Below are positions 1,502-22,570 of a stretch of DNA of 64,000 nucleotides, in pieces. The translations under genes were made by a program, and so were the position numbers. Source of the DNA: a virus; the IMG/VR virus record IMGVR_UViG_3300044568_006268, positions 62,001 through 126,000 of that record. One strand, given 5' to 3'. Within the stretch, counting starts at the first letter, position 1. Each line of letters starts with the position of its first letter. The notes beneath the pieces were generated by a model. It saw only the letters and a program-made list of their open reading frames with translations. It was not told the origin of the DNA and ran no database searches.

Positions 1502-1592
1502 ATACAACAAAAGCTCAATCTTACGATTAAGCTTTATCGAAGGTATATTAGGCCATACCAATAACCAGGACCTTTTCCCTAGGGAAATGTCG

Positions 1593-1675
1593 TGACCAAA
1601 GAGGGACTCGAACCCTCACGCTCAAAGAGCACCAGCTTCTTAGACTGGCGTGTCTACCAATTCCACCACTCGGCC
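1593..1675 (-). tRNA. tRNA-Leu(AAG)
   Basis: Class II tRNA: acceptor GGCCGAG, leucine-type D arm, variable arm stem GCTC/GAGC and a standard T arm. The anticodon loop is CTAAGAA, giving AAG. A34 in a bacterial-type leucine tRNA is unusual. CCA is not encoded. Confidence 0.85.
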
Positions 1676-1677
1676 GT

Positions 1678-1802
1678 AATGAGCAATCCTATGGAATTAC
1701 TGCAGTTTATCCAAAGGTCGTATATAGCTTGCAGACTAAGATTCTGCTGGATTTTCACCTTCATAAAGCTGGATATCAACGACCCTTATCGCGATTCTCA
1801 TT
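1678..1802 (-). ncRNA. structured spacer RNA
   Basis: The gap between two tRNAs is closed by AATGAG/CTCATT. Inside are nested stems GGTCGT/ACGACC and AGCTT/AAGCT and a tRNA-arm-like hairpin with stem GCAGA/TCTGC and a 7-nt loop. It has no T-loop consensus and no long reading frame. It could be a decayed tRNA, a processing spacer or a separate RNA. The fold was made by eye. Confidence 0.35.
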
Positions 1803-1803
1803 G

Positions 1804-1877
1804 TACCCGAGATGGGACTCGAACCCACACTGTACAGGGTTTAAGTCTGATGCCTCTTCCAATTGGGCTACCCGGGC
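1804..1877 (-). tRNA. tRNA-Leu(TAA), short variable loop
   Basis: Acceptor GCCCGGG pairs with CTCGGGT, the anticodon loop is CTTAAAC (TAA), and the T arm is standard. The variable loop is short, unlike the class II form expected for bacterial leucine tRNA. The amino acid is read from the anticodon only. Confidence 0.75.
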
Positions 1878-1880
1878 AAA

Positions 1881-2003
1881 TTAAAGAAGTAAGAAAATGA
1901 ACTCCTTAACAGCTGAACGTTCAATAACTTTAAGAATCATTTTGCTTGTATCTCTAGGATTTGCAACTCCTATAAATTCACAAAATGCTTTTTGTTTATT
2001 CAT
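1881..2003 (-). CDS. hypothetical peptide, 40 aa, between tRNAs
   Basis: An ATG-started frame encoding a peptide that begins MNKQKAFCEFIGVANPRD and ends in a hydrophobic LLL tail. It fills a gap between two tRNA genes, and its TAA lies next to the 5' end of tRNA-Leu(TAA). It may be real or an accident of an AT-rich spacer; no homology is recognised. Confidence 0.4.
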   Translation of the reverse strand: MNKQKAFCEFIGVANPRDTSKMILKVIERSAVKEFIFLLL

Positions 2004-2043
2004 TATTGTTCATTTCAATTTTGTTATTGCATTATTAGGAATA

Positions 2044-2116
2044 ACGATACTATAGGACTCGAACCTATACCTTCCAGCTCGCTCGCCGGAATTCTACCAA
2101 ATTAAACTAAATACCA
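2044..2116 (-). tRNA. tRNA-like gene with an 8-nt anticodon loop lacking U33
   Basis: The acceptor (TGGTATT/AGTATCG), D arm and T arm (ATAGG/CCTAT) are tRNA-like. The anticodon stem TTCCGG/CTGGAA closes an 8-nt loop, CGAGCGAG, which contains no U at all. No anticodon can be assigned. It may be a decayed tRNA, a frameshift-type tRNA or a decoy. Confidence 0.55.
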
Positions 2117-2153
2117 ACCTTTTTATCTCAATAACAAAAGATGTCCTTCTTTG

Positions 2154-2226
2154 TACCTAAGGAGGGATTCGAACCCACACTGTCATGCTCCTAAGGCATG
2201 TGCCTCTTCCGTTGGGCTACTTAGGC
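2154..2226 (-). tRNA. tRNA-Leu(TAG), short variable loop
   Basis: Acceptor GCCTAAG/CTTAGGT, anticodon stem CATGC/GCATG, loop CTTAGGA (TAG), standard T arm. The D arm and the short variable loop closely resemble the tRNA at 1804-1877, so the two form a pair of class I tRNAs with leucine anticodons. Confidence 0.75.
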
Positions 2227-2231
2227 AAATT

Positions 2232-2307
2232 GGTAAGTGATGGCCTACTTGTTACCATCTGTCTCTGTTTAGTTGCAACCACTAATCCTGAATGTAGAGA
2301 ACTTACC
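2232..2307 (-). ncRNA. cloverleaf-like RNA without tRNA consensus
   Basis: A perfect 7-bp closing stem GGTAAGT/ACTTACC flanks a 76-nt element. Directly inside its 3' side lies GATGG/CCATC, placed like a T stem, and in the middle TTAGT/ACTAA closes a 7-nt loop, placed like an anticodon arm. The T-loop consensus and U33 are missing. The ends are palindromic, so the strand is assumed from the neighbours. Confidence 0.4.
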
Positions 2308-2434
2308 TTTTGTTTTATGTTAGCTAATAAACATTGTTTCTAATGTTATTAACATCATCTTTTTAATTTTTGTACATTATAATATACATTAAGCCACAAT
2401 ATGACGTGTTTTGTATATTATAGTGTACATTTTG

Positions 2435-2507
2435 AGCTGACAATCAGGATCGAACTGATGACCTCTTCGATACCAACGAAGTGTTCTTCCAACTGAACTA
2501 TGTCTGC
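2435..2507 (-). tRNA. tRNA-Thr(GGT)
   Basis: Anticodon stem CTTCG/CGAAG with loop TTGGTAT. The acceptor GCAGACA/TGTCAGC has one mismatch. The T arm is standard and CCA is not encoded. Confidence 0.88.
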
Positions 2508-2514
2508 ATATTAC

Positions 2515-2612
2515 AGGGTTGTTAATTACCTCTTTCGAGGATTTCGGAGTTGAACCGATAGACAAAATTTCAAGTTTCGTGTTTAACCAATAGTTGTTTG
2601 CTGAAACAACCC
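2515..2612 (-). tRNA. aberrant tRNA-like gene, anticodon TGA (Ser?)
   Basis: An exact 8-bp end stem GGGTTGTT/AACAACCC fills the space between two threonine tRNAs. Inside are an anticodon arm CGAAA/TTTTG with loop CTTGAAA (TGA) and a T arm TCGG/CCGA. Extra sequence lies between the T arm and the 3' acceptor strand and forms CCTC-GAAA-GAGG. A 7-bp hairpin GTTGTTT/AAACAAC occupies the D-arm region. It is either broken or an insertion-bearing tRNA. Confidence 0.4.
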
Positions 2613-2617
2613 TTTTG

Positions 2618-2691
2618 AGCTGACAGTCAGGATCGAACTGACTCTGTTCCGGGTTACAAATCCGGTGCACCACCATTCATGCGTTGCCAGC
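2618..2691 (-). tRNA. tRNA-Thr(TGT)
   Basis: Acceptor GCTGGCA/TGTCAGC, D stem GCAT/GTGC, anticodon loop TTTGTAA (TGT) closed by CCGG/CCGG with an A.C mismatch, standard T arm. Confidence 0.85.
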
Positions 2692-2701
2692 ATATGTTTC
2701 G

Positions 2702-2772
2702 TTGGGATACTAGGTTTCGAACCTAGGCGGACTGGCTCAAAACCAGTAATGCTACCGTTACATCATATCCCA
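2702..2772 (-). tRNA. tRNA-Gln(TTG)
   Basis: Acceptor TGGGATA/TATCCCA begins with the U1-A72 pair typical of glutamine tRNAs. Anticodon stem ACTGG/CCAGT with loop TTTTGAG. Confidence 0.9.
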
Positions 2773-2778
2773 ATGTAG

Positions 2779-2849
2779 TTATCCGAGGTGGATTCGAACC
2801 ACCAATGACTGCACCAAAAACAGTAGTGTTACCGTTACACTATCGGACA
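2779..2849 (-). tRNA. tRNA-Gln(TTG), second copy
   Basis: Acceptor TGTCCGA/TCGGATA with U1-A72, anticodon stem ACTGT/GCAGT, loop TTTTGGT (TTG), T stem GGTGG/CCACC. It has the same anticodon as its neighbour but a different sequence. Confidence 0.88.
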
Positions 2850-2850
2850 G

Positions 2851-2924
2851 TGACCATAATAGGATTCGAACCTATAACCGCTGGTTTAGAAAACCAGTGC
2901 TCTATCCAATTGAGCTATATGGCC
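2851..2924 (-). tRNA. tRNA-Arg(TCT)
   Basis: Acceptor GGCCATA/TATGGTC, D stem GCTC/GAGC, anticodon stem CTGGT/ACCAG with loop TTTCTAA. AGA is the favoured arginine codon in AT-rich genomes. Confidence 0.92.
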
Positions 2925-2995
2925 AATTAAGTTCTCCAACCCTGGAACTTATACATATCATCATTAAGCGGTCACATAGAATGTGAGATATGTTG

Positions 2996-3081
2996 AAGAG
3001 AAGATGGGACTCGAACCCACAAACCGAATTAACGGTTAACGGATTAGCAATCCGCTGCAGTACCATTATGCTTACTTCTCT
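2996..3081 (-). tRNA. tRNA-Ser(GCT)
   Basis: Class II tRNA: acceptor AGAGAAG/CTTCTCT, anticodon stem GCGGA/TCCGT with loop TTGCTAA, long variable arm, standard T arm. Confidence 0.9.
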
Positions 3082-3086
3082 ATAAA

Positions 3087-3187
3087 AAGTTAAAGGCAGA
3101 ATTCCAAATCTGCATTTTTATTCTAAAACGAGAATAACGTGAGTTTTATCGATACGTCTATCGAGGCAATTATCACTACTTTAACTT
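3087..3187 (-). ncRNA. cloverleaf-like RNA without tRNA consensus
   Basis: A perfect 9-bp end stem AAGTTAAAG/CTTTAACTT encloses three arms in tRNA order. A long arm contains the hairpin CGATA-GACG-TATCG. A middle hairpin is TTATTCT/AGAATAA with a 6-nt loop. A last hairpin GCAGA/TCTGC abuts the closing stem like a T arm but has the loop TTTGGAAT. It lacks an anticodon loop with U33 and the T-loop consensus. The closing stem is symmetric, so the strand is inferred. Confidence 0.45.
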
Positions 3188-3189
3188 AA

Positions 3190-3279
3190 TGGAGGAGAGA
3201 GTGGGATTCGAACCCACGGAACGCTTTCACGCTCAATAGTTTTCAAGACTATCCTAATCAACCTCTCTAGCACCTCTCC
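3190..3279 (-). tRNA. tRNA-Ser(TGA) with encoded CCA
   Basis: Class II tRNA: acceptor GGAGAGG/TCTCTCC, anticodon stem ATAGT/ACTAT, loop CTTGAAA, long variable arm. It is one of only two tRNAs here with an encoded CCA end. Confidence 0.9.
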
Positions 3280-3285
3280 ATTATT

Positions 3286-3363
3286 TGGGGTGGAAGACGG
3301 GACTCGAACCCGCGATCTCTAGAACCACAATCTAGCGCTTTAACCAACTAAGCTACAACCACC
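3286..3363 (-). tRNA. tRNA-His(GTG) with encoded CCA
   Basis: Anticodon stem CTAGA/TCTAG with loop TTGTGGT. The 5' end supplies the extra G opposite C73 that is typical of histidine tRNAs, and CCA is encoded. Confidence 0.92.
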
Positions 3364-3376
3364 ATGTATAAAACAA

Positions 3377-3410
3377 AAAAGCTCGATTCATTTGATAGAA
3401 CCGAGCTTTG
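3377..3410 (-). terminator. hairpin terminator in front of tRNA-His (unit C)
   Basis: On the minus strand AAGCTCGGTTC pairs with GAATCGAGCTT and is followed by a T-run. It lies between the mini-ORF at 3444-3518 and tRNA-His, the same place as the hairpins at 5937 and 9272. Confidence 0.75.
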
Positions 3411-3443
3411 CAATTTAGTATTTATATTTTCACATAAGAACCA

Positions 3444-3518
3444 TCACACTTCGGTACTGTTTTCAGATCTTGTTAGATGCTGAAGCGACGTTAACGATAA
3501 TGTACTTGAAGTTCTCAT
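3444..3518 (-). CDS. 24-aa putative leader peptide (unit C)
   Basis: MRTSSTLSLTSLQHLTRSEN and four further residues: a peptide rich in serine, threonine and leucine. It follows a class B promoter and precedes a terminator hairpin and a tRNA block, an arrangement repeated three times. A leader-peptide or attenuation role is inferred from position only. Confidence 0.35.
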   Translation of the reverse strand: MRTSSTLSLTSLQHLTRSENSTEV

Positions 3519-3534
3519 TGTTTGTAATTTATTA

Positions 3535-3584
3535 TTTTTTATATATACTGTTATATGTCTAAAATTGCTGAGAGTTTCAAAAAA
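3535..3584 (-). promoter_or_regulatory. class B promoter-like motif, unit C
   Basis: On the minus strand GAAACT is followed, exactly 20 nt from its first base, by ACATATAACAGTATATATAA. The motif and the 20-nt spacing recur at 6125-6172 and 9454-9500, each upstream of a mini-ORF and a terminator. Confidence 0.6.
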
Positions 3585-3603
3585 CTTTCAATTTATTTTC
3601 TAG

Positions 3604-3700
3604 TGAAGACAATTGGGATCGAACCAATGGCACGCCTATGTTCCTTATCGATCATACCAATAAGTACTGAAGGTTGCTCTACCAACTGAGCTATATCTTC
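3604..3700 (-). tRNA. oversized tRNA-like gene, anticodon not assignable
   Basis: Acceptor GAAGATA/TGTCTTC, D arm GCTC/GAGC and T arm ATTGG/CCAAT are all perfect, but the gene is 97 nt long. The anticodon region holds an 8-bp hairpin CTTATTGG/TCGATAAG as extra sequence. No cut restores a normal arm with U33, so the identity is open. Confidence 0.55.
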
Positions 3701-3706
3701 ATTTGT

Positions 3707-3775
3707 AGCGGATTAAGGACTCGAACCTCGCCATTGGGTTATGAGCCCGATATGCTACCAATTACACTAAACCGC
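3707..3775 (-). tRNA. tRNA-Met(CAT), initiator-like
   Basis: The anticodon arm TCGGG-CTCATAA-CCCAA has the three G-C pairs typical of initiator tRNA. If position 1 is the T just upstream of GCGGTT, 1 and 72 are a T.T mismatch, another initiator trait. The T stem and acceptor have weak pairs, so it may be less functional than the one at 4737. Confidence 0.75.
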
Positions 3776-3777
3776 AA

Positions 3778-3876
3778 GATGACCTTAAGGATTCGAACCT
3801 TTAACTTGTTTCCTCTTTTAGTTTTGCAAACCTACTCAATTCTACCGTGCCCAATACACTATTGCCAATCGTCATT
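3778..3876 (-). tRNA. aberrant tRNA-like gene, anticodon GCA (Cys?)
   Basis: A T arm (AAGG/CCTT with loop TTCGAAT) and a loop TTGCAAA closed by a weak stem suggest a cysteine anticodon arm. The possible acceptor ATGAC/GTCAT is short and the total length is too great. It is probably a decayed or insertion-bearing tRNA; an intact tRNA-Cys lies at 5572. Confidence 0.3.
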
Positions 3877-3917
3877 TTCGAACATGACAGCCTTAAGTTA
3901 ATTACTCTTAAGATTTG

Positions 3918-3989
3918 TAGTCCCACCGGGAATCGAACCCGACTTTTCAGGATGAAAACCTGATGACCTAACCGATAGTCGATAGGACC
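3918..3989 (-). tRNA. tRNA-Glu(TTC)
   Basis: Acceptor GGTCCTA/TGGGACT, anticodon stem TCAGG/CCTGA with loop TTTTCAT, T stem TCGGG/CCCGG. Confidence 0.9.
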
Positions 3990-4034
3990 AATTAAGTTAT
4001 ATCAAATTCTCCCGCAGAGATACCGACCCATTGC

Positions 4035-4130
4035 TGAGCCAGAGAGGACTTGAACCTCTGATTCTCAATAACTAATTTAAAAGAATTAAAGAGTAGAGCT
4101 CTTCAACGATTTCGGCATTTCAGCTGGATC
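4035..4130 (-). tRNA. oversized class II tRNA-like gene; possible anticodon CTA
   Basis: The T arm AGAGG/CCTCT and an end stem GATCCAG/CTGGCTC (6 of 7 pairs) are visible in 96 nt. One reading gives the anticodon arm AAGAG-CTCTACT-CTTTA, with U33 and anticodon CTA (amber). Another reading removes 18 nt to give stem CTCAA/TTGAG with anticodon AGT, but then position 37 is T. The gene may also be broken. Confidence 0.3.
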
Positions 4131-4173
4131 TTTATGCCAACTTCCTAATCCTTAGTCCGTTTAATTCTTGTAG

Positions 4174-4247
4174 TATTATGTACGGGACTCGAACCCGTGT
4201 TATCAACGTGAAAGGCTGACGTCCTAGACCAACTAGACGAACATAAC
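4174..4247 (-). tRNA. tRNA-Glu(TTC), second copy
   Basis: Acceptor GTTATGT/ACATAAT is fully paired. Anticodon stem TCAGC/GTTGA with loop CTTTCAC, T stem ACGGG/CCCGT. Confidence 0.88.
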
Positions 4248-4251
4248 ATTT

Positions 4252-4464
4252 TTAAGCTTCTTCAGAGACAAGTCCTAAAACTTCTTCTCTGTAAATTTTA
4301 TTCAATTCACTTACTTCAATATCGATATTCGTTTGTGGATATCGGTGAAGTAAAATCTTAACTAATCTGATTCGTTTCTCAGCCAAATCTTGATTAAAGT
4401 CCATTTCAATCATTGCATCACTTAAATGAGATTGAATTGCGATTGATAATTTGATAGTTTCCAT
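4252..4464 (-). CDS. hypothetical protein, 70 aa
   Basis: A small acidic, mostly helical protein beginning METIKLSIAIQSHLSDAMIE. It is the only gene between promoter copy 2 and tRNA-Glu, so it is probably transcribed together with the tRNAs below it. The function is unknown. Confidence 0.6.
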   Translation of the reverse strand: METIKLSIAIQSHLSDAMIEMDFNQDLAEKRIRLVKILLHRYPQTNIDIEVSELNKIYREEVLGLVSEEA

Positions 4465-4485
4465 AATGTGATTGTTTAATTTTAA

Positions 4486-4546
4486 TAAGTAAAACTAATC
4501 AATTTAATTGACATATGGAAATTATTTTTCAAAAAGTTATTAACAA
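4486..4546 (-). promoter_or_regulatory. class A phage promoter, copy 2 (TAGTTTTA subtype)
   Basis: TTGTTAATAAC, then TTTCCATATGTC, then TAGTTTTAC 24 nt from the start of TTTCCA on the minus strand. It serves the small gene and the tRNAs below. Confidence 0.7.
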
Positions 4547-4558
4547 TTTTAAAATAAA

Positions 4559-4732
4559 AAGTTTGTCACCGGCACAGATTGGTGAATACCCAAGTACAAC
4601 CGAATGTACCCGATACCTTACTAACAAAATGAACGGATCTGTGTTTCCTGTATGCGGCAAGTGACCTCCTTCCTTGCTTGTGTTTCCGTATCGATGTGTG
4701 CGGCAACATACCATTTTGAGTTCAACAAACTT
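4559..4732 (-). ncRNA. candidate structured RNA, ~175 nt
   Basis: An 8-bp end stem AAGTTTGT/ACAAACTT encloses a second exact stem CAAAATG/CATTTTG, a stem GTATG/CATAC and a hairpin GTACA-TTCGGT-TGTAC. The strings CACAGAT and ATCTGTG could pair across stems as a pseudoknot. A T-rich tail follows on the minus strand. A 61-codon frame over this region runs into the promoter and does not look like protein. Confidence 0.45.
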
Positions 4733-4736
4733 CTTG

Positions 4737-4809
4737 TAGCGGGAGCAGGACTCGAACCTGCGACCTTTGGGTTATGAGCCCACTGAGCTACCAACTGCTC
4801 TATCCCGCA
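4737..4809 (-). tRNA. initiator tRNA-fMet(CAT)
   Basis: The D stem GAGC/GCTC, the anticodon arm GTGGG-CTCATAA-CCCAA with three G-C pairs, and a T.T mismatch at position 1/72 all mark an initiator tRNA. T stem GCAGG/CCTGC. Confidence 0.88.
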
Positions 4810-4835
4810 ATATACCTTTTAAGTAGAACCATCAA

Positions 4836-5027
4836 CTATATTTCTGTTGATGATTCTAATTGTCTTAATTTTAAACCTTCTTCAATTGTTTGAATGATGT
4901 CCTCAATTATTTGAGCTCGCGTAACATCAAAGTTACCATTCATTCCATTCAAATCTTTTGCATCAATTGCAATAGATCCTACTGACTTACCGTCTTTCTG
5001 TAATTCAATTACTAATGTATCAAACAT
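4836..5027 (-). CDS. hypothetical protein, 63 aa
   Basis: A small protein beginning MFDTLVIELQKDGKSVGSIA. It lies between the YkuK-like gene and the initiator tRNA inside the tRNA cluster. No family is recognised. Confidence 0.55.
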   Translation of the reverse strand: MFDTLVIELQKDGKSVGSIAIDAKDLNGMNGNFDVTRAQIIEDIIQTIEEGLKLRQLESSTEI

Positions 5028-5092
5028 AATATAGCTTTTTATTTAATTGTTTTATGCAATTTGAAATAAATTGTTTCTCTTCTTATTAACAT

Positions 5093-5551
5093 CTATCTAC
5101 AGATTCTATCAGCTACATATGAAGCCGAGCATGCATCTGGTTTACATCTAGCGTTATAACCTAATGATTCTACATAACCTAAAGCAGAACGCAGAATTGA
5201 ATTAGATTGATACTTAGGGTCTGGATTAAAATCCAAATCAATAAATGCAGGTTTTTCAATATCATTAGCTTCAAGCCATTGAGCTAATTCAACTGAATCT
5301 TCTACCTCTTTCCAAAGTCTAGTAAATCTATCTAAGATTCTAGGAATTGATTTACGAGAGTAGATAACGTGACCTCCTCGATTACCGTAATGTAAAACAA
5401 TAACCATTGCGTAAATTGTATTTCTTCCAATATTTTGCGAATCTGAACCGATATACATTTTGATGTCTTTACCAGTTGCGAGTTTGTCCTTTAAATAAGG
5501 AATTAAGTCAATTACTTGACCGTTTGTTAACGATTGAAATTTCCGGTCCAT
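5093..5551 (-). CDS. YkuK/DUF458-like RNase H-fold protein
   Basis: 152 residues. The strand MYIGSDSQ with an acidic residue at the first RNase H position, the later IDLDFNP and the overall size match the YkuK (DUF458) family, which has a predicted RNase H-like fold. The activity of the family is not established; a role in RNA turnover or processing is inferred from its place inside the tRNA cluster. The stop is TAA and the gene is not disrupted. Confidence 0.65.
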   Translation of the reverse strand: MDRKFQSLTNGQVIDLIPYLKDKLATGKDIKMYIGSDSQNIGRNTIYAMVIVLHYGNRGGHVIYSRKSIPRILDRFTRLWKEVEDSVELAQWLEANDIEKPAFIDLDFNPDPKYQSNSILRSALGYVESLGYNARCKPDACSASYVADRICR

Positions 5552-5571
5552 GATTATTAAATTTATGTTAG

Positions 5572-5642
5572 AGGCGAGTATAGGATTCGAACCTATGTAA
5601 CTGATTTTGCAGACCAGCGCCTAACCGCTCGGCCAACTCGCC
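5572..5642 (-). tRNA. tRNA-Cys(GCA)
   Basis: Acceptor GGCGAGT/ACTCGCC, anticodon stem CTGGT/ATCAG with loop CTGCAAA, standard T arm. Confidence 0.92.
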
Positions 5643-5647
5643 ATTTG

Positions 5648-5719
5648 TGACTCTAGAGAGACTCGAACTCCCATCTCCTGATCCGTAGTCAAGTGTTCTA
5701 TCCATTGAACTATAGAGCC
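5648..5719 (-). tRNA. tRNA-Arg(ACG)
   Basis: Acceptor GGCTCTA/TAGAGTC, anticodon stem CTTGA/TCAGG with loop CTACGGA. Confidence 0.92.
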
Positions 5720-5728
5720 ATTATTTTG

Positions 5729-5801
5729 TCGGGAAGACAGGACTCGAACCTGCGGCCTCATGCTCCCAAAGCACGCGATCTACCAACTGATCTACTTCCC
5801 G
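5729..5801 (-). tRNA. tRNA-Pro(TGG)
   Basis: Acceptor CGGGAAG/CTTCCCG with the C1-G72 pair typical of proline tRNAs, anticodon loop TTTGGGA closed by CGTGC/GCATG. Confidence 0.92.
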
Positions 5802-5848
5802 TGGCAGAGAGGCTTTTGAAGTGCCCTGCTAGTTCATCTTTTAATTTG

Positions 5849-5922
5849 TCGAATAGACAGGAATCGAACCTGCTAACTGATACGTCCAAGGTACCCGTGC
5901 TTAAAACCTTAGTCACTACTCG
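5849..5922 (-). tRNA. tRNA-Pro(TGG), second copy
   Basis: Acceptor CGAGTAG/CTATTCG with C1-G72, anticodon stem GGTAC/GTATC, loop CTTGGAC, T stem GCAGG/CCTGT. The D arm is irregular. Confidence 0.8.
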
Positions 5923-5936
5923 TTTAAAAACAAAAA

Positions 5937-5966
5937 AGCCTGAATCGGTTGAATGATTCAGGCTTT
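5937..5966 (-). terminator. hairpin terminator in front of tRNA-Pro (unit B)
   Basis: AAGCCTGAATC pairs with GATTCAGGCTT and a T-run follows on the minus strand. It lies between the mini-ORF at 5989-6084 and the tRNA block. Confidence 0.78.
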
Positions 5967-5988
5967 TATATGATGATGTTACTTTATA

Positions 5989-6084
5989 TCATTCAAAAAC
6001 CTGCATACCATTCTCACATGCCTCAGGACGAGGGCATTCTACTGTTAACTGCGATGTTGTTAGTATGTGTGAAAGTATTAACAT
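5989..6084 (-). CDS. 31-aa putative leader peptide (unit B)
   Basis: The peptide begins MLILSHILTTSQLTVECPRP. It sits between a class B promoter and a terminator, as do the mini-ORFs at 3444 and 9336. The three peptides share no clear sequence. A leader-peptide role is inferred from position. Confidence 0.35.
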   Translation of the reverse strand: MLILSHILTTSQLTVECPRPEACENGMQVFE

Positions 6085-6124
6085 TTTAATTTTTATTAGC
6101 AAAGACTCTTTATCTTTGTTTAGT

Positions 6125-6172
6125 TCTTTTATATATCTTTTATATGTTCCGTTATTGCGGAAGTTTCAAAAT
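6125..6172 (-). promoter_or_regulatory. class B promoter-like motif, unit B
   Basis: GAAACTTCC followed by ACATATAAAAGATATATAA at the same 20-nt spacing as the other two class B copies. It overlaps the end of the 54-aa gene at 6152-6316. Confidence 0.6.
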
Positions 6173-6316
6173 TATTTTATTCTTTTCTATTTGTGCTTTA
6201 ATCTTAGCAATCTTTTCTGGACTAGGATTTCTATCTATCGTATACGAAACACCCATCTTGTCCATGTAATCGTAAAGAAGTTGCATATCTTCATTAGTAG
6301 TTTTAGTTGTTTTCAT
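6152..6316 (-). CDS. hypothetical protein, 54 aa
   Basis: The frame begins MKTTKTTNEDMQLLYDYMDK and ends in a lysine-rich helix. It has an ordinary ATG and TAA and a composition like the phage genes. It lies downstream of tRNA-Gly in the direction of transcription. No family is recognised. Confidence 0.5.
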   Translation of the reverse strand: MKTTKTTNEDMQLLYDYMDKMGVSYTIDRNPSPEKIAKIKAQIEKNKIILKLPQ

Positions 6317-6328
6317 AATAACTATTTG

Positions 6329-6402
6329 AGCGGATATTCGGATTCGAACCGAAACTTCAGACTTGGAAGGCCCACGTGCTAGCCGTTAAACACCATACCC
6401 GC
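6329..6402 (-). tRNA. tRNA-Gly(TCC)
   Basis: Acceptor GCGGGTA/TATCCGC, anticodon loop CTTCCAA closed by TGGGC/GTCTG, standard T arm. Confidence 0.9.
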
Positions 6403-6412
6403 ATTTTGTTTG

Positions 6413-6485
6413 AGCAATAAATCAGATTCGAACTGACGACCTCTACCTTGGCAAGGTAATGCTCTACCAACTGAGCTATTATTGC
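6413..6485 (-). tRNA. tRNA-Gly(GCC)
   Basis: Acceptor GCAATAA/TTATTGC, D stem GCTC/GAGC, anticodon stem TTACC/GGTAG with loop TTGCCAA. Confidence 0.92.
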
Positions 6486-6486
6486 A

Positions 6487-6541
6487 TTTGAAGGACTTGC
6501 ACCTTCTGGACATGGTTTGTTTCGCCTAAGTCGCCATGTCA
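6487..6541 (-). ncRNA. two-hairpin remnant with T-arm-like loop
   Basis: On the minus strand GACATGG/CCATGTC closes a 20-nt loop and is followed by GAAGG-TGCAAGT-CCTTC, which resembles a T arm with G in place of the second T. There is no D or anticodon arm. It is probably a tRNA remnant. Confidence 0.3.
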
Positions 6542-6552
6542 ACAGACCCGAG

Positions 6553-6624
6553 AGGGCAGAGTGAGATTCGAACTCACGACCAGTTGATTAACAGTCAACT
6601 GCTCTACCGCTGAGCTATCCACCC
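6553..6624 (-). tRNA. tRNA-Asn(GTT)
   Basis: Acceptor GGGTGGA/TCTGCCC, D stem GCTC/GAGC, anticodon stem GTTGA/TCAAC with loop CTGTTAA. Confidence 0.93.
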
Positions 6625-6630
6625 TTATTG

Positions 6631-6741
6631 CAGGAATGTAAGGAATCGAACCTTAGCATCTTCCGAGACAGGGAGTAATTTATGCAGAATACAATCTTCG
6701 CAGATTGAGTTTTAAGCGTGCTACCATTACACCACATTCCT
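6631..6741 (-). tRNA. tRNA-Asp(GTC) interrupted by a 40-nt insertion
   Basis: The gene is 111 nt long. Acceptor AGGAATG/CATTCCT, D arm GTGT/GCAC, T arm TAAGG/CCTTA and discriminator G are intact. The anticodon stem is split after its third base. Removing 6674-6713 gives CTTCC-CTGTCTC-GGAAG, a normal Asp arm that differs by one base from the intact Asp tRNA at 8421-8494. The insertion contains a 6-bp hairpin CAATCT-GCGA-AGATTG. It could be an intron or a disabling insertion. Confidence 0.75.
6674..6713 (-). other. 40-nt intron-like insertion in tRNA-Asp
   Basis: The segment interrupts the 5' strand of the anticodon stem. It has a central hairpin followed by TATTCTGCA. The tRNA-Tyr insertion at 6925-6971 has the same order: a 6-bp hairpin followed by TATTCAGCA. 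No group I or group II intron core can fit in 40 nt. Confidence 0.6.
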
Positions 6742-6749
6742 GTATTTTG

Positions 6750-6866
6750 TGGGCTCATATGGGCTCGAACCATAATCTCTTCCTAATGACATCCTACCAT
6801 ACTAAAAAGGAATCGAACCTTAGACTCATTATCGAGAAAGCGCTTTGCCAATTAAGCTAATCGCCC
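6750..6866 (-). tRNA. oversized tRNA-like gene with two T-arm-like hairpins
   Basis: GGGCGAT, a D arm and CTTTC start the gene; GGAAG, T arm TATGG/CCATA and TGAGCCC end it. CTTTC/GGAAG forms a perfect 5-bp anticodon stem if about 45 nt between them are extra. The loop may read GAT (with C33) or CAT. The extra part holds a second T-arm-like hairpin. Only four acceptor pairs form, so it may be broken or chimeric. Confidence 0.4.
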
Positions 6867-6872
6867 ATGTAG

Positions 6873-7004
6873 TGAAGAATCCTAGACTCGAACTAGGAAT
6901 GTCAATTAAGACGCCGGTTTTACATCCTTTAAATTGCTGAATAAACACTTTGCACAGTGTTTGCCTTTTTGGACCGGAGCGTTTACCAATTCCGCCAATT
7001 CTTC
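6873..7004 (-). tRNA. tRNA-Tyr(GTA) interrupted by a 47-nt insertion
   Basis: The gene is 132 nt long. Acceptor GAAGAAT/ATTCTTC is perfect, the D arm and long variable arm are of class II type, and the T stem is CCTAG/CTAGG. Removing 6925-6971 joins CCGGTC to TGTAAAACCGG, giving the normal arm CCGGT-CTGTAAA-ACCGG and an 85-nt tyrosine tRNA. The loop CTGTAAA is identical to that of the intact tRNA-Tyr at 8247-8327. Confidence 0.78.
6925..6971 (-). other. 47-nt intron-like insertion in tRNA-Tyr
   Basis: It lies between positions 32 and 33 of the anticodon loop (the boundary can shift by a base). It contains the hairpin AACACT-GTGCAA-AGTGTT followed by TATTCAGCA, which resembles the hairpin plus TATTCTGCA in the Asp insertion. 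Confidence 0.6.
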
Positions 7005-7012
7005 ATTATTGT

Positions 7013-7082
7013 TCTCCCGCTGGGAGTCGAACCCAGCCTCATAGATTAAAAGTCTATTGCCCACACCAGTCTGCTACGAGAG
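7013..7082 (-). tRNA. tRNA-Lys(TTT)
   Basis: Acceptor CTCTCGT/GCGGGAG, anticodon stem ATAGA/TCTAT with loop CTTTTAA, T stem CTGGG/CCCAG. Confidence 0.88.
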
Positions 7083-7169
7083 ATTGTAAAGTTTTCTATT
7101 GCCAACCTCTCAACAGTGTAGAGTATTGACCTATCTATGTTTTCGCTTCATGTTCATTATATTATTTAG

Positions 7170-7243
7170 TGGCCAAGCCTGGACTCGAACCAGGGACCTT
7201 CGCATTATGAGTGCGCCGCTCTAACCAACTGAGCTACATGGCC
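7170..7243 (-). tRNA. tRNA with anticodon CAT (elongator Met or Ile2)
   Basis: Acceptor GGCCATG/CTTGGCC, D stem GCTC/GAGC, anticodon loop CTCATAA closed by CGCA/TGCG, T stem CCTGG/CCAGG. It resembles both elongator Met and lysidine-modified Ile tRNAs; the sequence alone does not decide. Confidence 0.9.
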
Positions 7244-7254
7244 AAAAATGTAGG

Positions 7255-7352
7255 GTTATCCGGTACCTACACTGATTAATGACAATCAGACCATCGTTCA
7301 CCACCTGTAAGAGCCTAACGATAGATACTGTACTTGCTTACACTCAAGTATC
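7255..7352 (-). ncRNA. chain of hairpins between two CAT tRNAs
   Basis: On the minus strand four stems follow one another: ACTTG/CAAGT (extended by GATAC/GTATC), ATCGTT/AACGAT, CTGATT/AATCAG and GTAGG/CCTAC. There is no reading frame. It may be a structured spacer or a separate RNA. Confidence 0.35.
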
Positions 7353-7359
7353 CGCTGGG

Positions 7360-7433
7360 TAGCGAGGACCGGGATCGAACCGGCGACCTTTGGTTTATGA
7401 ATCCAATGTTACTACCAACTGAACTACCTCGCC
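7360..7433 (-). tRNA. tRNA with anticodon CAT (Met or Ile2)
   Basis: Acceptor GGCGAGG/CCTCGCT, anticodon loop TTCATAA closed by TTGG/CCAA with an A.A mismatch, standard T arm. It is the fourth CAT tRNA in the cluster. Confidence 0.82.
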
Positions 7434-7472
7434 AAATTGTAAGTTTTGAATGGACTTACAACCATTGATAGA

Positions 7473-7703
7473 TTATTGGTGATGAGGAATATACTTTCCG
7501 TTCTTAACTCTAACTGCCAGTTTGGTCACGTTAAAATTCCAACAATCAAATGTACTTAATGCAGATCTTTGTTTTGCAAGACTAATGGCTTGCTTTTCTG
7601 CTTTTTCTCGACCTTCTTCCGTTGTTTCGACGAAAAAAGTGGGAGCCTGAACACCAGTCTTACTGGTAGGAACTACTCTCCAAATTCTCAAATTAGTAAT
7701 CAT
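7473..7703 (-). CDS. hypothetical protein, 76 aa
   Basis: A basic protein beginning MITNLRIWRVVPTSKTGVQA with a lysine- and alanine-rich middle helix. It lies below the YqeY-like gene inside the tRNA cluster. No family is recognised. Confidence 0.55.
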   Translation of the reverse strand: MITNLRIWRVVPTSKTGVQAPTFFVETTEEGREKAEKQAISLAKQRSALSTFDCWNFNVTKLAVRVKNGKYIPHHQ

Positions 7704-7746
7704 AAGTTTTAGCTAAGCTAGACCTATGAGGAATTGTACGATTTTG

Positions 7747-7777
7747 TTGACATTTGATTTATATTTTTTTATTATAT
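7747..7777 (-). promoter_or_regulatory. partial class B promoter-like motif
   Basis: GAACATATAATAAAAAAATATAA at 7747-7777 (minus strand) resembles the ACATATAA/TATATAA part of the class B motif but lacks the upstream GAAAC. It lies just upstream of the gene at 7473-7703. Confidence 0.35.
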
Positions 7778-7783
7778 GTTCGA

Positions 7784-8230
7784 TTAAGCCAGAGATTCAA
7801 TAACCTCTTTTACTAATTTTGTATCGGCAAGACCTGGAAATTTCTTAACGAAAGCACCCATAGTCATACCTATTAATTTTTGTTTGTTTAATTCTAAAAC
7901 AGAACCGAGTAAAACATTAACTTCAGTTTCAATTTCAGCTCTAGTCATTTGCTTTGGCAAGTACTTTTCAATAACACCTAATTCATTAGCTTCAGATTCC
8001 ACTAAATCGAATCGACCAGCTTTTGTAAATTCTTCAATAGATTGTCTACGTTGTTTGATTGTAGAAATTACTGCATTTAGAACTAACTCATCAGTAAGTG
8101 GACCAGCATGCTTTGCCTTTTCAGCATCTTGGATTTTTGCCTTTAATCCACTTAATGCATTCTTCGCAATCGCGTTTTTCTCTTTGAATGCTACTATATA
8201 GTCAGCATTGATTGTTTCTCTTAAATTCAT
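7784..8230 (-). CDS. GatB/YqeY-domain protein
   Basis: A 148-residue protein with the full length and layout of the YqeY family: an N-terminal helical half (residues about 1-90) and a C-terminal half with YLPKQMT, GMTMGAFVKKFPG and a final LVKEVIESL. YqeY resembles the tail domain of the tRNA amidotransferase subunit GatB, which binds tRNA, but its activity is unknown. Its place between tRNA genes suggests a role linked to tRNA charging; that is inference. Confidence 0.88.
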   Translation of the reverse strand: MNLRETINADYIVAFKEKNAIAKNALSGLKAKIQDAEKAKHAGPLTDELVLNAVISTIKQRRQSIEEFTKAGRFDLVESEANELGVIEKYLPKQMTRAEIETEVNVLLGSVLELNKQKLIGMTMGAFVKKFPGLADTKLVKEVIESLA

Positions 8231-8246
8231 CTTTACTAATTTTTAG

Positions 8247-8327
8247 TGGGCAACAGTGGACTCGAACCACTCCCGTGAGGACCAGATTTACAGTCTGGCT
8301 GCCGTATCCGAACGACTTTTGCGGCCC
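8247..8327 (-). tRNA. tRNA-Tyr(GTA), uninterrupted
   Basis: Class II tRNA with anticodon arm CCAGA-CTGTAAA-TCTGG, long variable arm and T stem AGTGG/CCACT. The acceptor GGGCCGC/GTTGCCC has one mismatch. It is the reference copy for the interrupted tRNA-Tyr. Confidence 0.88.
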
Positions 8328-8336
8328 ATTATATTG

Positions 8337-8410
8337 TGACTCCTCTGGGACTCGAACCCAGGACTCCCTCATTAAAAGTGAGGTGCTCTAGCCGACTGAG
8401 CTAAGAAGTC
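8337..8410 (-). tRNA. tRNA-Lys(TTT), second copy
   Basis: Acceptor GACTTCT/AGGAGTC, D stem GCTC/GAGC, anticodon stem CCTCA/TGAGG with loop CTTTTAA. Confidence 0.93.
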
Positions 8411-8420
8411 ATTGTAATAG

Positions 8421-8494
8421 CAGTCCTAACGGAATTCGAATCCGCAATCTCTTCCGTGACAGGGAAGCGTCATACGCCAATATGCTGTAGGACT
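8421..8494 (-). tRNA. tRNA-Asp(GTC), uninterrupted
   Basis: Acceptor AGTCCTA/TAGGACT, discriminator G, anticodon arm CTTCC-CTGTCAC-GGAAG. It is the reference copy for the interrupted tRNA-Asp at 6631. Confidence 0.9.
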
Positions 8495-8502
8495 ATATAA
8501 AA

Positions 8503-8576
8503 ATTATTTAGTTTAAGCTCCTTTAAACCATGTAATTTCAGGGAGCTATTTGAGCTTATGCATGGAACTAAATAAT
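8503..8576 (-). ncRNA. long-stem pseudoknot element, possible terminator
   Basis: An 11-bp perfect end stem ATTATTTAGTT/AACTAAATAAT encloses two interleaved stems, CCATG/CATGG and TAAGCTC/GAGCTTA, which form a pseudoknot layout. A run of T follows on the minus strand. It lies between two Asp tRNAs. Confidence 0.45.
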
Positions 8577-8581
8577 AATTG

Positions 8582-8655
8582 CCGAGATGACGGGACTCGA
8601 ACCCGTGACCTTCGCCGTGACAGGGCGACATTGTAACCAACTCTACTACACCTCG
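8582..8655 (-). tRNA. tRNA-Asp(GTC), third gene
   Basis: Acceptor CGAGGTG/CATCTCG, discriminator G, anticodon arm TCGCC-CTGTCAC-GGCGA, T stem ACGGG/CCCGT. Confidence 0.9.
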
Positions 8656-8658
8656 ATT

Positions 8659-8696
8659 TCTAATTTCACGCTCACACTATGCAGTTCTATAAATTA
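8659..8696 (-). other. stem-loop between tRNA-Asp and tRNA-Asn
   Basis: CTAATTT pairs with AAATTAG (7 bp) around a loop of about 24 nt. No T-run follows. The function is unknown. Confidence 0.3.
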
Positions 8697-8714
8697 GTAA
8701 CAGTCTCATCTGGG

Positions 8715-8788
8715 CTCTCCTGACTGGATTCGAACCAGTAACCCTCACCTTAACAGGGTGTCGCTCTAACCGTTGGAGCTACAGGAGA
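8715..8788 (-). tRNA. tRNA-Asn(GTT), second copy
   Basis: Acceptor TCTCCTG/CAGGAGA, discriminator G, anticodon loop CTGTTAA closed by CACC/GGTG. It is the first tRNA below promoter copy 3. Confidence 0.88.
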
Positions 8789-8802
8789 ATATTTGATGTT
8801 TT

Positions 8803-8870
8803 AATTATAAGACAAATATAAACAATGTCATTGACATATGAAAATATTTAATCAAATAGTTATTAACAAT
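8803..8870 (-). promoter_or_regulatory. class A phage promoter, copy 3, within the tRNA cluster
   Basis: TTGTTAATAAC, TTTTCATATGTC and TATATTTG with the usual spacing, on the minus strand. It drives tRNA-Asn and the tRNAs below it. Confidence 0.75.
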
Positions 8871-8873
8871 TTG

Positions 8874-8945
8874 TGGAGCTACCGGGATTCGAACCCGGAA
8901 TAACAGAGTGCAAGTCTATCGTGATGCCAATTTCACTATAGCCCC
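8874..8945 (-). tRNA. tRNA-Ala(TGC)
   Basis: Acceptor GGGGCTA/TAGCTCC, anticodon stem ATAGA/TCTGT with loop CTTGCAC, T stem CCGGG/CCCGG. Confidence 0.92.
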
Positions 8946-8955
8946 ATTAAATTTG

Positions 8956-9030
8956 TAGGAGATGACGGAATCGAACCGACGACCTTTTGCGTGTAAAACA
9001 AACGCTCTAAACCAACTGAGCTAATCTCCT
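8956..9030 (-). tRNA. tRNA-Val(TAC)
   Basis: Acceptor AGGAGAT/ATCTCCT, D stem GCTC/GAGC, anticodon stem TTTGT/GCAAA with loop TTTACAC. Confidence 0.92.
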
Positions 9031-9036
9031 AAATTG

Positions 9037-9110
9037 TAGGTAATATGAGACTCGAACTCATAACCTCCTCGGTATCAGCGAGGTGCTCTAACCAATTGAG
9101 CTAACTACCT
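9037..9110 (-). tRNA. tRNA-Ile(GAT)
   Basis: Acceptor AGGTAGT/ATTACCT, D stem GCTC/GAGC, anticodon stem CCTCG/CGAGG with loop CTGATAC. Confidence 0.94.
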
Positions 9111-9117
9111 GTGGCAG

Positions 9118-9188
9118 CACGAATGGAAGGATTCGAACCTTCATCGACGGTTTTGGAGACCGGCATGCTACCATTGCACCACACTCGT
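9118..9188 (-). tRNA. tRNA-Trp(CCA)
   Basis: Acceptor ACGAGTG/CATTCGT, discriminator G, anticodon stem CCGGT/ACCGT with loop CTCCAAA. Confidence 0.93.
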
Positions 9189-9195
9189 ATTTTAG

Positions 9196-9268
9196 TGGTA
9201 AGGGACGGGATCGAACCGTCATCATCGGATTTTCAGTCCGCTGCATAGACCAACTTTGCTACCTCACC
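9196..9268 (-). tRNA. tRNA-Phe(GAA)
   Basis: Acceptor GGTGAGG/CCTTACC, anticodon loop CTGAAAA closed by CGGA/TCCG, T stem GACGG/CCGTC. Confidence 0.92.
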
Positions 9269-9271
9269 AAA

Positions 9272-9308
9272 AACAAAAAACCTCTGAATTTTTGAAGATT
9301 CAGAGGTT
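9272..9308 (-). terminator. hairpin terminator in front of tRNA-Phe (unit A)
   Basis: AACCTCTGAAT pairs with ATTCAGAGGTT and is followed by TTTTTTG on the minus strand. It lies between the mini-ORF at 9336-9434 and the tRNA block. Confidence 0.78.
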
Positions 9309-9335
9309 AAAGTATATTGTATTAAAATATCGATA

Positions 9336-9434
9336 CTACATCCGAATCACATTGCTATCCACATAATCATTCCCGGCAAACTTAATCGCCCAGTCAAAAT
9401 TCATGTTAATATTTATGTTAGTAGTAGGTATCAT
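9336..9434 (-). CDS. 32-aa putative leader peptide (unit A)
   Basis: The frame begins MIPTTNININMNFDWAIKFA and ends with TAG. It follows the class B promoter at 9454-9500 and precedes the terminator and tRNA-Phe. A leader-peptide role is inferred from the arrangement, which occurs three times. Confidence 0.35.
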   Translation of the reverse strand: MIPTTNININMNFDWAIKFAGNDYVDSNVIRM

Positions 9435-9453
9435 TTTATTGATGTTTTAATAT

Positions 9454-9500
9454 TGTTTTATATATACTGTTATATGTTCTAAATTTCAAAAAGTTTCAAC
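9454..9500 (-). promoter_or_regulatory. class B promoter-like motif, unit A
   Basis: TTGAAACTT followed by ACATATAACAGTATATATAA on the minus strand, with the 20-nt spacing of units B and C. It lies just below the 187-aa gene. Confidence 0.6.
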
Positions 9501-10104: not shown

Positions 10105-11421
10105 TTAACCTTCAGCTTCTTCGGTATCAATTACTCCAGAATCTTTTACGATTCCTTCAAGTACTTTGAATTCGAAAGACTTGAATTTGAATGTTTTGTT
10201 TACCAAACCACCTTCAATTCTTACACAAACTCCTTCTTTGATATGTCTAGTATCTAAGATAGATGGACCAGTTCCGAATGTTTCGACGGTGTTGCTGAAA
10301 TATTCTCGCAAATCTCTATCATCGAATTTATGAGTGATTGCTTCTAATTCGTTTAAGGTTATCGTAGCAACATGTGGTACAGTTTTTACACCTAATTCAT
10401 TACAACGTTTTACAACATCATTCCAAGCATAATCGATAGATTGACCATCTTCATTAGCAAATGTCATACGGTAAACATAAACCTCAGATTGAGTAGGTTC
10501 ACAACCATAAGAATAAGCCATAGACTTACCGTATTGTTTCGTAAACTCTTTATCACCCATTTTGGTTGTATCAACAGATGGCATAATTGCAGCTCCTGTA
10601 GATTCGTAACCTACAATTTCAAAATAAACGGTTTCACCTTTTCTTAAGTTACCTTTGAATAAGTTCATTGCTTTATCTCGGATGGTTGGGTCATGGAATT
10701 GATTTGCGGATTTTGATTCTCCTAAAACAACTCTACGAGTACCATTCAAATAAGCCCATTCTTTGTCGTTGATAGCTAATCCAAATTTAGTAACAAGTTT
10801 TTCTAACCAACCTAATTCTCTAGTCATTTGAACGTGACCAATACGACCTGAAGTACCGTGAAGTTTTTCAGTAATAATGATGTGTTGACCCTTTTCAAAT
10901 TCGTGGATACTCTTACCAAAGTGTCCGGTATCAAAATGTTCTTTGAACATTACAGAAGATCTAGAAACTCGGGTTTTCTTACCTTGATTTTCTCTAGCAA
11001 TTTTAGCCGTATTTGGATTTACATATTTGTTACAGATAGGTACACCTTTCCATTCGTCAAATTCAAATCCTTCTACATCTAAACCAGTTACCATAATGAA
11101 TCCAAAGTAATGTAATGGAACCCAGAAACCATCAGAGATTTCACCTCTAAATTTTTGAGCTCTTACTCTTCGGTTTGCATCGAACATTCCACCTTTCTCA
11201 TCTTTTCTAGCATTTAACTCGGCATCACGATAAAGGTTGTTTGCTTTACAGAACTCATCGGATAACTGACCATCAGATGGAAAGTAAACTCCTAAATGTC
11301 CTTCTAAAGAATCTAAACCAATTACTACTTGATTACCGTGACAAGTTGCTAATTGAACTTTGTCTGCGTTAGGATGTGGTCTCACGTTTGTCAACCTAGT
11401 GACGATTGCATTGTATGCCAT
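10105..11421 (-). CDS. RNA ligase, DraRnl (Rnl5)-like
   Basis: 438 residues. The nucleotidyltransferase motif I is TEKLHGTSGRIG with the adenylated lysine at about 186. Later motifs are FEIVGYE (about 267-273) and EGVCVRIEGG with the motif V lysines near residues 408-418. The N-terminal about 150 residues, starting RLTNVRPHPNADK, match the OB-like domain of the Deinococcus RNA ligase type (DRB0094). Such enzymes seal nicks with a 3'-OH and a 5'-phosphate in RNA using ATP. The gene lies next to the tRNA cluster and directly under promoter copy 4. A role in tRNA repair or splicing is inferred. Confidence 0.88.
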   Translation of the reverse strand: MAYNAIVTRLTNVRPHPNADKVQLATCHGNQVVIGLDSLEGHLGVYFPSDGQLSDEFCKANNLYRDAELNARKDEKGGMFDANRRVRAQKFRGEISDGFWVPLHYFGFIMVTGLDVEGFEFDEWKGVPICNKYVNPNTAKIARENQGKKTRVSRSSVMFKEHFDTGHFGKSIHEFEKGQHIIITEKLHGTSGRIGHVQMTRELGWLEKLVTKFGLAINDKEWAYLNGTRRVVLGESKSANQFHDPTIRDKAMNLFKGNLRKGETVYFEIVGYESTGAAIMPSVDTTKMGDKEFTKQYGKSMAYSYGCEPTQSEVYVYRMTFANEDGQSIDYAWNDVVKRCNELGVKTVPHVATITLNELEAITHKFDDRDLREYFSNTVETFGTGPSILDTRHIKEGVCVRIEGGLVNKTFKFKSFEFKVLEGIVKDSGVIDTEEAEG

Positions 11422-11507: not shown

Positions 11508-11618
11508 TAGTCAGAACAGGATTCGAACCTGTATGGTGTTACCTAGAGTACTCAATACAGAGCGGTAAATCGGTTACGAACCATTACTCTTAGCGTCTTC
11601 CAATTCCGCCACCTGACT
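11508..11618 (-). tRNA. oversized class II tRNA, Leu-like, interrupted anticodon loop
   Basis: 111 nt. Acceptor AGTCAGG/TCTGACT, a leucine-type D arm (GCG/CGC), variable arm GGT-AAC-ACC and T arm ACAGG/CCTGT are intact. AGAGTA pairs with TACTCT across about 33 nt that include a hairpin GGTT-CGT-AACC. Depending on the register the anticodon is GAG (Leu) or TGA (Ser). It lies 1.4 kb away from the main cluster. Confidence 0.55.
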
Positions 11619-16335: not shown

Positions 16336-16400
16336 TTGATATACAAATATAAGCAAAAAACTCGACATATGGAAATGTCGAGTCATATAGTTATTAACAA
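16336..16400 (-). promoter_or_regulatory. class A promoter, copy 6, overlapping a terminator hairpin
   Basis: TATATTTG lies 24 nt from TTTCCATATGTCGAG. The same bases form the hairpin ACTCGACAT-TTCC-ATATGTCGAGT followed by T5, an intrinsic terminator for the Hsp20 gene above. Confidence 0.78.
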
Positions 16401-22493: not shown

Positions 22494-22570
22494 TTTATAA
22501 GACAAATATAATCAAAAAGCTCGATACGTGGAAATATCGAGCTTATTATTTTCAAAAAGTTATTAACAAT
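22494..22570 (-). promoter_or_regulatory. class A promoter, copy 8, overlapping a terminator hairpin
   Basis: TTGTTAATAAC, hairpin GCTCGATAT-TTCCACGT-ATCGAGC with T5, and TATATTTG at 24 nt from TTTCCACG on the minus strand. Confidence 0.8.

Follow-up and report, generated by a model that had tools for sequence, protein, structure and literature searches.

Candidate ribosome-mediated attenuators in a phage tRNA array, with leader codons that match the tRNA genes behind them

T-box riboswitches sense tRNA status by antitermination in front of tRNA-related genes, and do so with a conserved aptamer and no translation. In the attenuation of amino-acid operons it is the ribosome that responds to scarcity, in that it is slowed and transcription continues (PMC1183508), and in the leuS and trpS attenuators of Streptomyces a leader peptide and a terminator govern the supply of charged tRNA (PMC1262725). 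Large sets of tRNA genes are also carried by phages such as T4, the Lak megaphages and XacN1, Lak A1 being described as having 33 tRNAs and tRNA introns (PMC6784885). We discuss here a similarly large tRNA array in a stretch of phage DNA of 64,000 nucleotides (the window), which is positions 62001-126000 of the 129,487-base IMG/VR record IMGVR_UViG_3300044568_006268. In this array three units, each with a short leader open reading frame (ORF) and an intrinsic terminator, stand in front of blocks of tRNA genes. We propose from the sequence, with a probability that we put at about 85%, that the units act as ribosome-mediated transcription attenuators, each sensing the aminoacyl-tRNAs its own operon supplies.

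The units are like the trp, his, thr, leu and ilv leaders in having an ORF rich in regulatory codons, an intrinsic terminator before the first gene and a competing antiterminator. They differ in being phage-borne, with one leader for each tRNA block, in having tRNAs and not enzymes as the output, and in that a single leader covers many amino acids, with a tendency for its codons to fit the isoacceptors too. The Streptomyces attenuators control a synthetase and concern one amino acid, whereas the phage units would control the tRNAs themselves. With T-boxes the units would share antitermination that senses tRNA, but the leaders have no Rfam T-box match. The T4 cluster differs in that our finder gives no such unit there.

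The array is on the minus strand, with 35 genes by ARAGORN and 37 by Rfam, and is interrupted by the units at 9269-9499, 5926-6169 and 3370-3580, all on that strand. The order is the same in each: a promoter-like pair of boxes (TTGAAACT-N14-ACATATAA), an ATG frame, an intrinsic terminator and then tRNA genes, the first of which is 10-15 nt from the hairpin. A first-pass annotation had reported three promoter, mini-ORF and terminator units in front of tRNA blocks, and we find them at the same sites; its frames of 24-32 codons measure 24, 31 and 32 codons, and the hairpins with T-runs that it placed after them have RNA minimum free energies (MFE) of -17.1, -18.5 and -14.2 kcal/mol. The exact 20-nt spacing that it gave is indeed exact in all three units, but it runs from the start of one box to the start of the next, and the gap between the boxes is 14 nt. 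A terminator scan of the array (minus strand, about 10.0 to 1.3 kb) gave the three unit hairpins, a hairpin at the end of the array (1510-1535) and one false match inside a tRNA gene; the only strong terminators within the array, besides the one at its end, are those of the units. The features are as follows.

9456..9499, minus strand, promoter-like element of unit 3, TTGAAACT-N14-ACATATAACAGTATATATAA
9336..9434, minus strand, leader ORF 3, 32 codons, MIPTTNININMNFDWAIKFAGNDYVDSNVIRM
9336..9348, minus strand, putative antiterminator arm S2 of unit 3, overlapping the last codons and the stop; GATTCGGA pairs with TCTGAATC of the terminator 5' arm
9269..9308, minus strand, intrinsic terminator 3, 11-bp stem, 8-nt loop, T-run
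6328..9268, minus strand, tRNA block 3, Phe Trp Ile Val Ala Asn Asp Asp Lys Tyr Met(cat) Met(cat) Lys Asn Gly Gly, with protein genes interspersed
6126..6169, minus strand, promoter-like element of unit 2
5989..6084, minus strand, leader ORF 2, 31 codons, MLILSHILTTSQLTVECPRPEACENGMQVFE
5988..6013, minus strand, putative antiterminator arm of unit 2, with the stop codon at its end
5926..5967, minus strand, intrinsic terminator 2, 13-bp stem, 8-nt loop, T-run
3604..5922, minus strand, tRNA block 2, Pro Pro Arg(acg) Cys Met(cat) Glu Glu Met(cat) and an oversized tRNA at 3604-3700
3537..3580, minus strand, promoter-like element of unit 1
3444..3518, minus strand, leader ORF 1, 24 codons, MRTSSTLSLTSLQHLTRSENSTEV
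3447..3458, minus strand, weak candidate antiterminator arm of unit 1, ACCGA/TCGGT
3370..3409, minus strand, intrinsic terminator 1, 12-bp stem, 8-nt loop, T-run
1592..3362, minus strand, tRNA block 1, His Ser(tga) Ser(gct) Arg(tct) Gln Gln Thr(2618-2691, from Rfam, its TGT anticodon assigned by eye) Thr(ggt) Leu(tag) ??? Leu(taa) Leu(aag)
1505..1535, minus strand, terminator-like hairpin closing the array

The short ORF before the first gene, and the intrinsic terminator between the two, are what is expected of an attenuator, and it was from this layout only that the first-pass annotation had inferred attenuation. That inference is now supported by an in-frame codon match, by antiterminator potential and by recurrence in other phages, and the codon match is a stronger ground for it than the layout. 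The amino-acid sets of the three blocks are largely distinct. In leader 1 the amino acids of block 1 (His, Ser, Arg, Gln, Thr, Leu) account for 19 of the 23 residues, and leader 3 has 26 of 31 cognate to block 3, with all eleven of the block's amino acids present (Phe, Trp, Ile, Val, Ala, Asn, Asp, Lys, Tyr, Met, Gly). For leader 2 the count is 10 of 30, with all five present (Pro, Arg, Cys, Met, Glu). As background we took windows matched in length to each leader from 118 long ORFs of this phage, and 0%, 0.4% and 3.2% of them reach the counts of leaders 1, 3 and 2 respectively.

In the 17 non-redundant units from this and other phages, residues cognate to the unit's own block number 360 of the 537 in the leaders, as against a mean of 243.3 and never more than 319 when the blocks were permuted 200,000 times. 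The leaders also include 143 of the 156 amino acids of their own blocks, for which the permutations have a mean of 112.8 and a maximum of 134. These figures are strong but not exact, as units from the same phage group are in part dependent on one another. An exact permutation confined to exchanges inside each phage, with 11 units from four phages, ranked the real pairing first among 432. The match is at chance in the shifted frames of 15 units (195 against 193.1 expected for +1, and 186 against 188.5 for +2), and this loss of signal argues against base composition as its cause. It extends to isoacceptors, since codons readable by the block's own anticodons make up 12 of 14 for Arg, 20 of 22 for Leu and 17 of 28 for Ser (13 units; these are raw counts without a null), and for example AGA is used in leader 1, where the block has Arg-tct, and CGT in leader 2, where it has Arg-acg. 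The regulatory codons are in this sense cognate to what the operon supplies. Likeness of the peptides themselves is limited to leader 3 and L039A (NFxWAxxFA..NDY, by eye); peptide homology was considered as the shared signal and rejected, as the peptides differ between phages and the codon match persists.

The other units came from a search for the layout that made no use of composition, requiring a hairpin and T-run shortly before a tRNA gene and a short ATG frame ending before the hairpin. Phages were sampled by way of the neighbouring RNA-ligase gene and by way of another gene of the array. Units were found in L039 (two), G002 (three), G001 (one), L062 and its relative L063 (one), G010 (three), L084/L085 (one) and L087 (one), and are present in 8 of the 9 different ligase-bearing records with at least 5 tRNAs (fragment L044 excluded), the sole exception being G003, with no leader at any of its 7 scattered tRNAs. 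All three of the new tRNA-bearing records reached through the array gene have one unit. The leader of L062 samples all 20 amino acids. Prevotella phage Lak-A1, taken as a control for comparison, has two units: the leader with MHPVCGMVHMFPCGGGRPM precedes His, Pro, Arg, Arg, Gly, Cys and Met tRNAs, and the other precedes a Trp/Ile/Val/Tyr/Gln/Leu block. DNA resembling both leaders is present in 15 of 15 matched Lak records, and the pairing arm ACTTGAG is intact between the Lak A and B types.

Two relatives were compared with the window. L036 is 100% identical over the array. In L037 the leaders are 97.9% and 98.6% identical to those of the window, with no change inside either ORF, as compared with about 89-95% for most aligned neighbouring stretches. 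An exact scan of viral contigs for the box motif gave 30 stretches, in which the only true relatives were L019 (contig of L037) and L025/L027 (contig of L036); the remaining stretches are chance matches with no tRNA array nearby. Alignment of the RNA ligase against genome_contigs gave no relative.

With regard to the counts, near-duplicates were excluded, namely L037, L036/L048, L063 (of L062), L085 (of L084), the other 14 Lak records and L044, which is a fragment that ends short of the leader and in which the tRNAs duplicate part of G001. The single-tRNA genomes G005, G011 and Lysinibacillus phage LC76P1 lie outside the leader survey. Six finder hits with hairpins in or beside tRNA genes were not counted (window 2821-2845, two in L063, two in L078 and L093 at 3154). 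The ORF or start was chosen by eye for L066K, missed by the finder's first ORF rule, for L087, where the tRNA is beyond the finder's hairpin distance, and for LakB, with 37 rather than 59 codons. L052 was first spotted by eye and was caught by the finder after the allowed loop was widened. For L084 the conservative ATG start (18 codons) is used throughout, a GTG start giving a longer match. Without L066K and L087, and with the 59-codon LakB, the codon match is still reached in 0/200,000 permutations, and a set made by rule only (longest ATG ORF, 15 units) has 328 of 495 residues cognate, again with 0/200,000, also when the six spurious hits are added.

For attenuation one expects in addition an antiterminator exclusive with the terminator and having a 5' arm close to where the ORF ends, and for the set as a whole this is found. 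The S2:S3 energy summed over the 17 units is -273.2 kcal/mol, as against a mean of -194.2 and a best of -255.6 when leaders are swapped (0/200,000), and for 8 of the 17 terminators no leader pairs better than that of the same unit. In the window the unit 2 antiterminator has a free energy (dG) of -21.9, not reached in 500 shuffles (0/500), and appears in the MFE structure if folding starts 40 nt before the stop; that of unit 3 has a dG of -12.3 (shuffle p 0.044). Arm and terminator pairings include CAGGTTTTTG/TAAAAGCCTG in window unit 2, GGGGTTCTTATTA/TAATAAGAACCCT in L054, CAGGGCTTCTATTGT/ATAGTAGAAGCCCTG in L066Y, GGGGTTTCTTAT/ATGAGAAACCCC in L051 and CGAGGTTC/GAACCTCG in L084. The cognate codons are concentrated upstream of S2 (311 of 410, as against 49 of 127 within or after it; Fisher p 2.6e-14, 17 units), which is the order predicted for a sensor followed by a switch. 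The distance from stop to hairpin is 21-37 nt in 16 of 17 units and 46 nt in LakB, and with the size of the ribosome footprint taken into account this is enough room for a ribosome at the stop codon not to block the terminator.

The in-frame match to the downstream tRNAs, the antiterminator at the ORF end and the recurrence with unrelated peptides and different tRNA sets thus support attenuation; the layout, the frame dependence and the potential to pair can be read directly from the DNA, while promoter activity, translation, stalling, read-through and the biological trigger are what we infer. The promoter would give a short transcript in which the ORF serves as a test strip of codons for the tRNAs encoded directly behind it. 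If the cognate aminoacyl-tRNAs are plentiful the ribosome would reach the stop fast and cover or clear the 3'-terminal antiterminator arm of the ORF, the terminator hairpin would form and RNA polymerase would halt before the tRNAs. If any of these tRNAs is scarce, host tRNAs having been cleaved, decayed, left uncharged or over-drawn, the ribosome would stall in the test strip, the arm would pair with the 5' arm of the terminator and the tRNA block would be transcribed. tRNA levels would then change with translation of the leader, as the first-pass annotation suggested, and the net result would be production of tRNA on demand through negative feedback.

Several observations weigh against this proposal or do not fit it well. 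Leader 2 has 13 of 30 residues cognate to block 1, further downstream, and its first half (LILSHILTTSQLT) fits block 1 and not block 2; the mix is either an exception or a sign that unit 2 serves block 1 too. The in-register antisense frame has a modest excess (229 against 189.5, 53/100,000, 15 units), which is probably a mirror of the sense codons and is unexplained in detail. The antiterminator is significant singly at 0.05 in 6 of 13 units, and the remaining units, including unit 1 (shuffle p 0.34) and L056 (p 0.61), do not reach that level. In L052, L054, L066K, L067R and LakA the pairing arm ends several codons upstream of the stop, so that the classical geometry, with a ribosome at the stop masking the arm, is inexact. 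L037 is missing many of the block 3 tRNAs though leader 3 is unchanged. The finder gave no unit in the tRNA-bearing phages T4, immuto, Vibrio 2.275.O, BcoS-136, XacN1 and Slickus01, and no leader was seen at the Phe block of L067 or the Cys block of L053.

The mini-ORFs could instead be ordinary small phage genes with their own terminators, the tRNAs being expressed from other promoters or by leaky read-through and the composition being incidental. Each unit by itself does resemble a complete small transcription unit, and there are further promoter-like sequences inside the array, such as TATATTTG at 8813-8820. However the composition follows the downstream block over the 17 units (0/200,000), in frame only and with peptides that differ among phages, and the ORF ends can pair with the terminators, and we think it unlikely that the frames are only small genes. 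A leader acting through translation by a route other than transcription attenuation, such as protection of the transcript by ribosomes or RNase processing of a tRNA precursor, also has some points in its favour, as leader 1 and L056 have no convincing antiterminator and the tRNA 5' end is 6-25 nt from the T-run of the hairpin in 12 of 13 units, which makes a role in processing conceivable. The hairpins nevertheless have the form of intrinsic terminators and the S2:S3 complementarity of the whole set is far above chance, so we give such a route a small probability.

It is also conceivable that an untranslated leader RNA senses the tRNAs directly in the fashion of a T-box, for the products are tRNAs and the leader has trinucleotides complementary to their anticodons. 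We consider this very improbable, as the trinucleotide match is restricted to the ORF frame and consists of whole codon strings and not a single specifier, and no Rfam T-box family matches at gathering or relaxed thresholds. No T-box aptamer was recognised, unit 2 having only sub-threshold matches to Thr_leader (25.2 of 55 bits) and trpB (29.7 of 59 bits).

The promoter-like boxes deserve comment, as GAAACT-N14-ACATATAA has exactly 3 copies in the window and 3 in the whole 129,487-base record, none of them outside the units, whereas 200 first-order Markov windows of the same composition have a mean of 0.01 and a maximum of 1. These boxes differ from the TATATTTG-type sequence that precedes many other genes of the phage. 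TAnnTTTG is the Bacteroidota promoter consensus, and it is only from the promoter-like sequences and the Prevotella host of the Lak phages that we infer a Bacteroidota host. The G002 and G010 leaders (L051, L052, L054, L066) have TACTTTTG-type sequences upstream, unlike the ACATATAA boxes of the window, and the two Lak leaders have an upstream block of their own, common to both; the type of promoter varies while the switch stays conserved. A recurrent composite on the minus strand of the window comprises TTGTTAATAAC, often a terminator-like hairpin, and then TATATTTG and a gene start (30052-30107, 27060-27116, 22503-22569, 16344-16400 and 8813-8869 are examples). There are about 19 copies of TTGTTAATAAC in the record, on a single strand only, and the composite looks like a promoter that incorporates the terminator of the preceding gene.

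There are other observations on these arrays. An RNA ligase gene (10105-11421) is upstream of unit 3 and a YqeY-like gene (7784-8230) is within block 3, and both may relate to tRNA repair or charging. Oversized tRNA genes of 97-111 nt, recognised by Rfam and not by ARAGORN, are found at 6631-6741, 3604-3700 and 11508-11618 and possibly carry introns or inserts, as reported for Lak phages. In block 1 ARAGORN calls a tRNA with a four-base anticodon (agcg) at 2044-2116. tRNAs with a CTA anticodon, labelled Pyl by ARAGORN, are present in L053 at 1590 (phage G002) and in L079 at 7048 and 7131 (XacN1) and are candidate amber suppressors. Similar short genes (..KPHKYHYIYKTTCNV..GKYYIGMH..) lie between tRNAs in L037 at 7744 and in L039 at 4287 and 9445, and we take them to resemble GIY-YIG homing endonucleases.

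The class of mechanism is an old one, and as far as we have seen it is the tRNA arrays as output and the many-codon leaders as input that are new. The main texts of the Lak papers PMC6784885 and PMC8346664 do not mention leader control ("leader" and "attenuat" occur 0 times), and a full-text literature search, with subscription papers and preprints largely outside its coverage, found no paper on leader-peptide attenuation of phage tRNA genes. Phage tRNAs have been proposed to evade defences that target tRNA (PMC10264068), and this proposal, with the RNA ligase gene beside the array, suggests cleavage of host tRNAs as a possible natural trigger. We see about even odds that the tRNA arrays of phages of Bacteroidota-type hosts are an inducible reserve, in which a translated sensor of many codons controls each block and opens it only if the ribosomes are short of those very tRNAs, for example after cleavage by a host anticodon nuclease.

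A leader that monitors exactly the tRNAs under its control would reveal what the phage responds to, and ideas on tRNA supply and on anti-defence would become directly testable with reporters. Any phage that has a tRNA array can be screened for attenuators of this kind, with tRNA genes as output and many codons as input, and these would provide a natural set of multi-codon translation sensors. If the arrays are indeed an inducible reserve, they would be a self-regulating system of both counter-defence and supply, in which leader peptides evolve as codon lists that predict the tRNAs that follow.

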